Below are positions 10,073 to 45,166 of a DNA stretch of 55,397 nt, one piece after another (the first letter of the stretch is position 1; every line of letters begins with the position of its first letter). Where the stretch lies: assembly GCA_017539165.1 (NCBI GenBank), contig JAFYHN010000080.1, positions 1-55,397 of the forward strand. Reading direction: 5' to 3'. The stretch is from Eubacterium sp. (GTDB taxonomy: Bacteria; Bacillota; Clostridia; Lachnospirales; Lachnospiraceae). The translations under genes were made by a program, and so were the position numbers. The notes below the pieces were generated by a model. That model made no database searches. It saw only the letters and a program-made list of their open reading frames with translations, and was not told the DNA's origin.

Positions 10073-10126
10073 TTGTTATTCGCAGTCAATTTACTATTCA
10101 CGGTCAACTTACTATTCACAGTCAAC
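10073..10126. repeat. Three tandem 18-bp repeats that equal the PE1 element terminus
   Basis: TTGTTATTCGCAGTCAAT (10073-10090), TTACTATTCACGGTCAAC (10091-10108) and TTACTATTCACAGTCAAC (10109-10126) are three consecutive 18-bp units. The same sequence forms the terminal repeat of the PE1 palindromic element that follows, so this looks like a piled-up element end. Units abut without spacers, which rules out a CRISPR array. Confidence 0.85.
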
Positions 10127-10274
10127 TTAAAACACACTCTTAAGTCCACCTTGTCCACAAGTCTGTTCTTAAGCAAGCTTAAACAGACTTGTATACAAGG
10201 TTCTATCGCTGCTACGCAGCACTTAATCGTGCGTTTCAAGTTCCTGCTACGCAGGTCTCATGAGATAAGCAAGC
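10109..10274 (+). repeat. PE1 palindromic element, copy 1 (3'-truncated)
   Basis: The module order is: terminus TTACTATTCACAGTCAAC; stem-1 left arm with ACACTCTTAAGTCCACC; stem 2, CAAGTCTGTT (10158-10167) with AACAGACTTG (10182-10191) around an apical GCAAGC; hairpin GCTGCTACGCAGC (10208-10220); stem-1 right arm GTGCGTTTCAAG (10229-10240); hairpin CCTGCTACGCAGG (10243-10255). Stem-1 arms CTTAAAACACAC and GTGCGTTTCAAG pair at 10 of 12 positions. The third long stem and the right terminus are missing; the copy ends where copy 2 begins. No coding potential. Confidence 0.8.
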
Positions 10275-10507
10275 TACTATTCACGGTTGACTAAAAAAAC
10301 ACTCTTAAGTCCACATCGAACAACGACTTTTCCTTATGCAAGCATAGAAAAGTCTTATGTTCAATGTTCTACTGCTGCTACGCAGCACTGAATCGTGTTT
10401 TTTAAGTCACCTGCTTCGCAGGTATGATATAAAATCAGCTATATAAGTCTTAGTTTGCTAGCAACCACGCCTAATATAGCTGATTTTATATCAACCGTGA
10501 ATAGTAA
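10275..10507 (+). repeat. PE1 palindromic element, copy 2 (complete, 233 bp)
   Basis: Termini TACTATTCACGGTTGA (10275-10290) and TCAACCGTGAATAGTA (10491-10506) are perfect 16-bp inverted repeats. Stem 1 is GACTAAAAAAACAC (10289-10302) with GTGTTTTTTAAGTC (10395-10408), 13 of 14 paired. Stem 2 is GACTTTTC (10325-10332) with GAAAAGTC (10347-10354), loop region with GCAAGC. The hairpin GCTGCTACGCAGC is at 10374-10386 and CCTGCTTCGCAGG at 10410-10422. Stem 3 is a perfect 19 bp (10426-10444 with 10474-10492). With copy 1 it fills most of the ~500-nt gap between the aldolase terminator and the tubulin-like gene; no gene is seen there. Confidence 0.85.
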
Positions 10508-21056: not shown

Positions 21057-21593
21057 ATGCTTAATATAGTACTGCACGAACCGGAAATACCTTATAATAC
21101 GGGTAATATTGGAAGGACGTGTGTGATCACAGGGACGAGGCTTCATCTTATTCGTCCTTTCGGATTTCTATTAAATGATAAGATGGTTAAACGTGCCGGT
21201 CTTGATTACTGGCATAAACTGGATGTTACTGAACATGATACGGTAGATTGTTTTTATGAGTATATGGCTAAGGAAGCATCTGAGAAGGAAGCGGCTGGTG
21301 AACGAAGACCAAGACTGTTTTATGCAACGACTAAGGCTAAGCACAGATATACTGATGTGGAGTTTCATGACGGCGATTATATAATGTTCGGAAGAGAGAG
21401 CGCAGGAATTCCTGAAGAGATTCTGGCTGAGCATCCAGAGGATTGTATCAGAATACCTATGATGCCGGACGAAAGGTCGCTGAATCTTTCGAACAGTGCG
21501 GCAATCATTCTTTACGAAGCGCTGAGACAGATGGACTTTCCCGGACTTGAAGATGAAGGGGAGCTGCACAGGCTGACATATAAAGATGAATAG
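21057..21593 (+). CDS. trmL: tRNA (cytidine/uridine-34 2'-O-)-methyltransferase
   Basis: A SPOUT (SpoU) family enzyme that 2'-O-methylates the wobble base of tRNA-Leu isoacceptors. The 178-residue protein begins MLNIVLHEPEIPYNTGNIGRTC, the family signature with the catalytic Asn/Arg. It continues LHLIRPFGFLLNDKMVKRAGLDYW, FGRESAGIPEEIL and IPMMPDERSLNLSNSAAIILYEALRQ, the knotted SAM-binding motifs. TTAGGAGATAAT precedes the start. The small Cys-rich gene follows 31 nt after. Confidence 0.94.
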   Translation: MLNIVLHEPEIPYNTGNIGRTCVITGTRLHLIRPFGFLLNDKMVKRAGLDYWHKLDVTEHDTVDCFYEYMAKEASEKEAAGERRPRLFYATTKAKHRYTDVEFHDGDYIMFGRESAGIPEEILAEHPEDCIRIPMMPDERSLNLSNSAAIILYEALRQMDFPGLEDEGELHRLTYKDE

Positions 21594-21814: not shown

Positions 21815-22047
21815 TTACGCTTCACAGTAGATACAAATTATATAATAGCTGAATAGACTGCTTGCAGGCTAGCTCGGCTATTATATAATTTGTATCGTGC
21901 CTGCGAAGCAGGAACCGTAAAAACATGAGGGAGGTGTCTGCGTAGCAGACAGTAGAGCATCGCTTGAGAATTCGTATAAGCTTGCTTAATACGAATTGAT
22001 AAGCGAGTGCGGACGTCCCGAATGGTATTACGGTTACTGTGAAGTAA
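21815..22047 (-). repeat. PE1 palindromic element, copy 3 (complete, 233 bp, opposite strand)
   Basis: Termini TTACGCTTCACAGTA (21815-21829) and TACTGTGAAGTAA (22035-22047) are imperfect inverted repeats. Read on the minus strand the module order equals copy 2. Stem 1 is ACCGTAA (21914-21920) with TTACGGT (22028-22034). Stem 2 is TCGCTT/AAGCGA and ATTCGTAT/ATACGAAT around GCAAGC (21960-22006). Hairpins are GTCTGCGTAGCAGAC (21936-21950) and CCTGCGAAGCAGG (21900-21912). Stem 3 is a perfect 20 bp (21830-21849 with 21877-21896). The length is identical to copy 2 although the stem sequences differ throughout. It fills the gap between the small Cys-rich gene and rnhA. Confidence 0.85.
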
Positions 22048-45088: not shown

Positions 45089-45133
45089 ATATCCCGTCAT
45101 CCTCTGGTTGAGGAAGACGGGATATATTTTTTT
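45089..45133 (+). terminator. Terminator of the 95-aa protein gene
   Basis: ATCCCGTCATCCTC (45091-45104) pairs with GAGGAAGACGGGAT (45110-45123), one mismatch, then ATATTTTTTT. Confidence 0.9.
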
Positions 45134-45166
45134 CACAGTTACATAAAATACACTCTTAAGTCCACC
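45132..45166 (+). repeat. PE1 palindromic element fragment (5' end)
   Basis: TTCACAGTTACATAAAATAC followed by ACTCTTAAGTCCACC aligns over 35 bp to 10115-10150 of copy 1, and the last 16 bases (ACACTCTTAAGTCCAC) also occur in copy 2 at 10300-10315. The rest of the element is absent; unrelated sequence follows up to feoAB. Confidence 0.7.

Follow-up and report, generated by a model that had tools for sequence, protein, structure and literature searches.

The three copies of a small repeat element that lie in the window, i.e., the whole stretch of 55,397 nucleotides of Eubacterium sp. DNA analysed here, are members of a dispersed, MITE-like family of Lachnospiraceae. The family has some of the features by which MITEs are recognized, namely terminal inverted repeats and many dispersed copies without a conserved gene. 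It bears out the earlier proposal of a dispersed family with terminal repeats, as many copies were found and their ends are present. The occupancy of its sites differs between species, and one position has been kept. On balance, and with modest confidence, we read the family as a dispersed MITE-like element whose payload would be a structured RNA, working in the manner of the ERIC and BOX repeats and sometimes kept in place.

In addition to the three copies, the window contains one degenerate remnant (Table 1). Copies 2 and 3 are equal in length (233 bp) and show their parts in the order claimed for them in the first-pass annotation. The perfect pairing of their third stem (P3) was also seen, with 20 bp in each copy in place of the 19 and 20 bp first given. 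Copy 1, earlier described as the first two thirds of the element, is indeed a partial unit without a right end, and not a simple two-thirds, as it stops at the apex of the third stem. The terminal repeat that recurs in tandem beside it is present in four copies, with spacings of 18, 18 and 165. An arrangement of a unit without a right end followed by a complete copy was also found in the near relative G004 and, at the window site, in G008. Tandem arrays of element units were observed at loci L260, L262, L270, L292, L297 and L254, the last of which (the same as L171, in G004) has the right-endless unit before a complete copy, like the window site. Using blastn, a twin of copy 2, 96% alike, was located in the source genome at C44:7546-7777.

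Table 1. Positions in the window of the element copies, their parts and the remnant.
Feature	Position	Strand	Description
18-bp tandem repeats	10073..10126	+	terminal repeat and first stem bases; left of and into copy 1
Copy 1	10109..10274	-	terminal repeat, stem 1, stem 2, small hairpins, single stem 3 arm ending at apex GCAAGC
Copy 2	10275..10507	-	complete element, subfamily A; folded strand is -
Copy 2 left terminal inverted repeat	10275..10287	+	
Copy 2 small hairpin hp1	10375..10385	-	CTGC-GTA-GCAG on folded strand
Copy 2 small hairpin hp2	10410..10422	-	CCTGC-GAA-GCAGG on folded strand
Copy 2 stem 3 (P3) arms	10425..10444 and 10474..10493		pairing without mismatch
Copy 2 right terminal inverted repeat	10494..10507	-	
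Copy 3	21815..22047	+	complete element, subfamily B; folded strand is +
Copy 3 stem 3 (P3) arms	21830..21849 and 21877..21896		pairing without mismatch
Copy 3 small hairpin hp2	21900..21912	+	
Copy 3 small hairpin hp1	21938..21948	+	
Degenerate remnant	45132..45165	+	subfamily A left end and first strip; 86%, query 6-40, E 0.0022

With R1, a core covariance model of 135 positions built from 11 copies of the source genome, we identified 23 places in the source genome at E≤1 and 20 at E≤1e-4, the 11 training copies included. The window copies, all of them training copies, score 113 bits (copy 1, matched over 10123-10255), 121.3 bits (copy 2) and 133.5 bits (copy 3) with R1, and copy 3 scores 81.5 bits with R2, a second model that represents the short forms. 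Under strict filters and with the source genome counted, R1 matched 31 of 61 genus genomes at E≤1e-4; in the family, sampled at about one genome per genus, it matched 14 of 299 at E≤0.01. The covariance-model search that had been recommended as a check therefore returned many further copies in the source and related genomes. In the class, R2 matched five of 391 genomes at E≤1e-4 (source genome counted, strict filters under which weak matches are lost), all from the same family, which argues against a spread well beyond Lachnospiraceae. An exact pattern of subfamily A was found in nine stretches, from assemblies titled Lachnospiraceae bacterium or Eubacterium sp., several of them from rumen samples. 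A set of 97 loci, part of the genus R1 matches, yielded 109 element matches. Additionally, lone terminal repeats without an adjoining core were seen at L299, L300, L304 and L311, possibly as footprints of lost copies, and L298, L302 and L310 are deleted forms of about 124-139 bp that have lost most of the core but still carry both ends, hp2 and a P3-like hairpin.

In order along the folded strand, the element consists of a terminal repeat, P3, hp2 (CTGC-GAA-GCAG), P1, a G-A/G-A internal loop, P1b, hp1, the strip RGTAGAR, P2, the strip GGA(C), the return arms of P1b, the G-A step and P1, and the second terminal repeat. The terminal inverted repeats are about 15 bp long (GTTACTATTCACRGT in subfamily A), and their sequence is conserved in subfamily A and in part of the other forms. 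Three forms were distinguished. Two are long, A (CTCTTAAGTCC and GCAGCACT) and B (GGGACGTCC); in the third, the short form, P2 amounts to a hairpin of about 4 bp. P3 is a long hairpin (median 25 pairs) with CTTG as its usual loop, found in 64 of 105 copies and corresponding to CAAG on the strand first described. G-A steps are readable as sheared pairs, and by eye the step is swapped for ordinary pairs in L282, L290 and L296.

Folded as single-stranded DNA, copies 2 and 3 form closed multi-branched structures of -54.9 kcal/mol (z -12.5) and -53.6 kcal/mol (z -11.3), respectively, with none of 200 shuffles as good in either case; the z-score of copy 1 is -6.5. Copies 2 and 3 each contain a perfect stem of 20 bp, their longest, and 200 mononucleotide shuffles of copy 2 give 12 bp at most. 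Across the family, P3 has 20 pairs or more in 93 of 105 copies and, after shuffling, in 8 of 105. The arms are unlike between copies yet paired within each, as had been noted: P3 arms pair with their own partner at 0.859 and with the partners of other copies at 0.334 (of 105 copies examined, the 97 that were distinct and had 15 pairs or more), a comparison in which the choice of arms by folding favours the own-partner figure.

In a structure-fitted alignment of 106 distinct rows, 41 of the 42 pairs vary on both sides and 90.8% of the cells pair. The alignment was fitted to the R1 structure, and its related rows are mutually dependent; its score is 0.438, as compared with 0.141 (sd 0.005) for shuffled alignments and at most 0.085 for slid structures, and it holds 782 double-change cells against 211 in the shuffled case. 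An alignment of 41 short-form rows made from sequence only, the test structure being named from one row, has 79.0% of its cells paired and scores 0.319, where shuffled alignments give 0.148 and slid structures no more than 0.169. The base-pair covariation that the first-pass annotation had asked for is thus far above the shuffled background, and the selection or copying on a folded form that it had proposed is supported by the fold z-scores and the covariation together. These two results and the stem lengths in shuffles rule out chance palindromes.

The strand that folds was addressed by the wobble in its mismatches, since G-T is tolerable in the folded strand, A-C is not, and a G-T on one strand is an A-C on the other. 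When G-T was disallowed in folding, the single mismatches of 105 elements, given as they read on the reverse of the first-described strand, comprise 46 G-T and 12 A-C; when the first-described strand was folded instead, the counts in the same opposite-strand letters were 50 and 13. Counting each sequence context once, which partly removes the kinship of the copies, leaves 40 and 45 G-T against 12 A-C (p 1e-4 and 1e-5). In the same mismatch counts, A-G exceeds C-T, by 101 to 6 and 61 to 11. Because G-T exceeds A-C there, the folded strand is likely the reverse of that on which the element was first described; the test names a strand and is silent on RNA versus DNA.

With respect to both flanking genes (ORFs of at least 100 aa), the folded strand runs with them at 29 loci, against them at 7 and is mixed at 9, one neighbour being unassigned at 1. 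These 46 of 48 loci (two skipped at contig ends) come from the source genome and the genus and include some sites more than once, as orthologues from different species, which makes them dependent on one another. The folded strand thus goes with the genes in 29 of 36 co-directional pairs of the genus, and by form, sorted by text pattern, the counts with and against are 11/5 for A, 7/0 for long B and 11/2 for short. In other genera, 20 of 21 loci were scored (one skipped; ORFs of 70 aa or more) and gave no orientation bias, with 4 running with, 7 against and 9 other. Copy 2 and its C44 twin run against both of their flanking genes. Copy 3 was scored as mixed owing to a long overlapping ORF on the opposite strand, which is taken to be spurious; by eye, its neighbours at 21057 and 22092 run in its direction. 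The earlier argument that occurrence in both orientations speaks against an mRNA role fails in the genus, given the 29 of 36 pairs and the tRNA-Leu/greA site described below; the unbiased loci of other genera and copy 2 speak in its favour. Our results suggest that it is the folded copy that matters, most likely as RNA read along with the neighbouring genes.

For the comparison of occupancy, the joined flanks of 12 copies of the source genome were searched in 22 genomes of the genus, mostly drafts and one genome per species. Alignments across the join, resembling an empty site, were obtained in at least one genome for C22a, C26, C12b, C22, C44 and C89. In G004, the sites w3 (copy 3), C75a, C46, C12c, C89 and C22a are occupied, that of C75a by an element from another subfamily and those of copy 3 and C89 by elements that have lost parts of the fold; the C34 site holds no element. 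From the losses in G004 at copy 3, C89 and C34, it follows that many copies are not retained. In G004 the C44 site is empty, and the surroundings of the C44 twin are unlike those of copy 2. A same 193-bp insert, apparently another repeat, lies at the C22a site in G005 and G033 (L164 and L165). For the window site, 29 loci were retrieved, and the 15 in which one of the flanks had no match were left unjudged. In 13 of the remaining 14 relatives the site measures 124-273 bp and lacks the element, as compared with 601 bp here; in the fourteenth, G008, two short-form units, of which the first has no P3, stand in tandem in the same orientation. The proposed examination of empty sites therefore showed occupancy that differs between species and no precise empty site with target duplication, the intergenic DNA being too diverged to place the joins to the base.

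The kept position lies between a tRNA-Leu, found by Rfam, and a gene that we take to be greA from its protein sequence, read by eye. The element is present at this place in five genomes (the source genome, G356, G343, G346 and G012), which amount to about three independent rows because two pairs of genomes are nearly identical (99.5% and 98.5%). The strips, the small hairpins and GCTTGCT are nearly constant among these copies, and P3, P1b and the outer stem differ yet pair.

A conserved fold at a repeat of this kind might also serve mobility, in which case the single-stranded DNA would be the substrate of a single-strand transposase or of a replication-linked process and RNA would be uninvolved, a reading that we regard as unlikely. 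It would fit the terminal repeats of subfamily A, which are conserved in sequence where the stems are not, the presence of copies in both orientations, the tandem units that end near the P3 apex and the small hairpins of the folded strand, which are of the GNA-triloop kind; such hairpins are very stable in DNA. It does not account for the gene-orientation bias in the genus or for the tRNA-Leu/greA site, where the fold is kept with other letters in the outer stem, which mobility does not require. REP elements are linked to RAYT (Y1) transposases. A search of the source genome for Y1 transposase (PF01797) gave no matches, with controls positive in 5 of 14, so identity with a REP/RAYT system was discarded. 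As for an autonomous partner, no facing matching ends 0.6-5 kb apart were found in nine genomes with at most one mismatch, a search that degenerate ends escape; two facing pairs lie further apart, at 8.6 and 9.9 kb (G000:C95 and G343:C147). The mobilization as folded single-stranded DNA suggested in the first-pass annotation is therefore without direct support, from either a Y1 transposase or matching end pairs.

Among the titles listed in our search of the open-licence PMC literature, none is of a paper on this repeat family, and the known repeats are likened to it by description; Clostridiales-1 or RF01699 is named in four papers there. The BOX elements of Streptococcus pneumoniae are modular intergenic repeats of variable size with a predicted RNA fold, judged to be parasitic and likely to affect co-transcribed genes (PMC3049150); they resemble the present element in this modular layout and differ in lineage and fold and in the target duplications reported for them, unlike here. 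ERIC (IRU) sequences of enterobacteria are described as 127-bp co-transcribed repeats with an orientation-dependent effect on the stability of the upstream mRNA (PMC2229807); that effect was tested for ERIC, whereas for the present element the comparison is of orientation and position only. REP elements (PMC3733652) share the palindromic character, and the present element differs from them by a much larger multi-branched fold and by the absence of a Y1 transposase gene from the source genome.

Against Rfam at the curated threshold, the window gave nothing but glmS and no match to Clostridiales-1 RNA (RF01699). The glmS riboswitch/ribozyme lies at positions 92-282 (61.8 bits), before a 605-aa ORF at 369. 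Among 20 short-form loci, 12 match RF01699 at E≤0.02 over the full model (1-166), all on the folded strand, although in one of them, L297, the match covers only 85 bases. None of the 20 reaches the curated cut-off of 48 bits (best 44.6, 42.1 and 41.5), and 8 have no match at E≤1. Three of 18 mixed loci match at E≤10, the long forms mostly not; in a set of six loci, two match at E≤1, and copies 2 and 3 do not. Element copies of the source genome score 37.7 bits (C101:66641, the greA site) and 18.8 bits. The same genome holds a bona fide Clostridiales-1 RNA, L130 (C20:25216-25384, 92.2 bits), to which R2 gave no match at E≤1 when run on this one sequence. By eye, L130 is followed by tandem repeats of its own right-hand part with a period of about 63 bp.

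P3 with its GCUUGC cap and the GAG-hairpin-CGGA motif carry the RF01699 match; the middle is poorly aligned. Because of the scores below the cut-off, the poor middle and the failure of R2 to find the bona fide copy, the family is judged, on sequence comparison, to be related to Clostridiales-1 RNA and not a member of it. The view that no described family has this layout thus stands in so far as all scores are below the cut-off, and needs qualifying for the 12 of 20 short-form loci. Both have a long P3 capped by GCUUGC, the strip-hairpin-CGGA motif on the same strand and, by eye, a G-A step between P1 and P1b. The element lacks one separate arm of Clostridiales-1, adds hp1 and hp2, and has a long P2 (subfamilies A and B), terminal inverted repeats and an occupancy that varies between species. 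In the table of Weinberg et al. 2010, Clostridiales-1 is entered as "y" (probably an RNA) and as "n" in the next two columns, with Clostridiales and human gut as its source (PMC2864571).

That the family is a divergent branch of Clostridiales-1, a small RNA or leader RNA proper whose copies multiplied as a by-product of duplication, without mobility, would agree with these shared parts, with the best score of 44.6 against a cut-off of 48 and with the kept site before greA. We consider it improbable, in view of the short-form loci below the cut-off or unmatched, the few matches of the mixed loci and their lack in copies 2 and 3, the R2 result with L130 and the missing arm; additionally, the terminal repeats and the differing occupancy favour mobility.

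As to how the stems change, close relatives within the family mostly differ by single changes. In 33 of 37 such pairs of copies these are more numerous than Watson-Crick double changes, counting base pairs predicted in either copy, which indicates that compensation is gradual. This excess makes template switching unneeded as a general driver, except perhaps in the C44 twin. By eye, its P2 arm pairs perfectly along 17 nt in a place where copy 2, L096, L228 and L245 have an imperfect arm in common; the C44 arm is one candidate template-switching event. The capture of stem 3 from elsewhere was also discarded, as blastn of copy 2 in the source genome matched P3 only in copy 2 itself and its twin, the other matches to P3 having an E-value of 7.9. 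A hairpin-templated (quasipalindrome) correction that keeps parasitic palindromes paired without selection, the pairing being a mutational artefact, would suit the C44 arm and the description of template switching as able to make and keep hairpins (PMC8794818), and is very unlikely, since P1 covaries as well although other structure separates its halves, the excess of G-T over A-C on one strand is unexpected from a strand-blind process and the changes in close pairs are mostly single.

In the reading that we favour, a dispersed element with a structured RNA as payload, the fold would act in most copies as RNA inside the transcripts of the neighbouring genes, where its hairpins may set mRNA stability or processing, by analogy with what is reported for ERIC and proposed for BOX. 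The copies would spread as a non-autonomous element through their terminal repeats, and some would then be kept in place, as at tRNA-Leu/greA, and the stems would change their letters through ordinary compensatory substitutions, with hairpin-templated copying contributing now and then. More tentatively, and as a possibility to which we give less credence, a structured RNA domain may be the payload of a mobile element that spread in one bacterial family and became fixed as a cis-acting leader (tRNA-Leu/greA), with Clostridiales-1 as one branch of the superfamily.

With its 109 matches, the family provides more than a hundred natural variants of one fold as material for weighing compensatory substitution against template switching. 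If the payload reading is true, the same fold could be watched passing from parasite to regulator. If the family is placed correctly, Clostridiales-1, a listed and unexplained candidate RNA, would gain a context, sitting in a larger set of folded elements that disperse in a MITE-like manner and are in places fixed parts of operons, and the variants of the family would be usable to study how a selfish repeat becomes a regulator.
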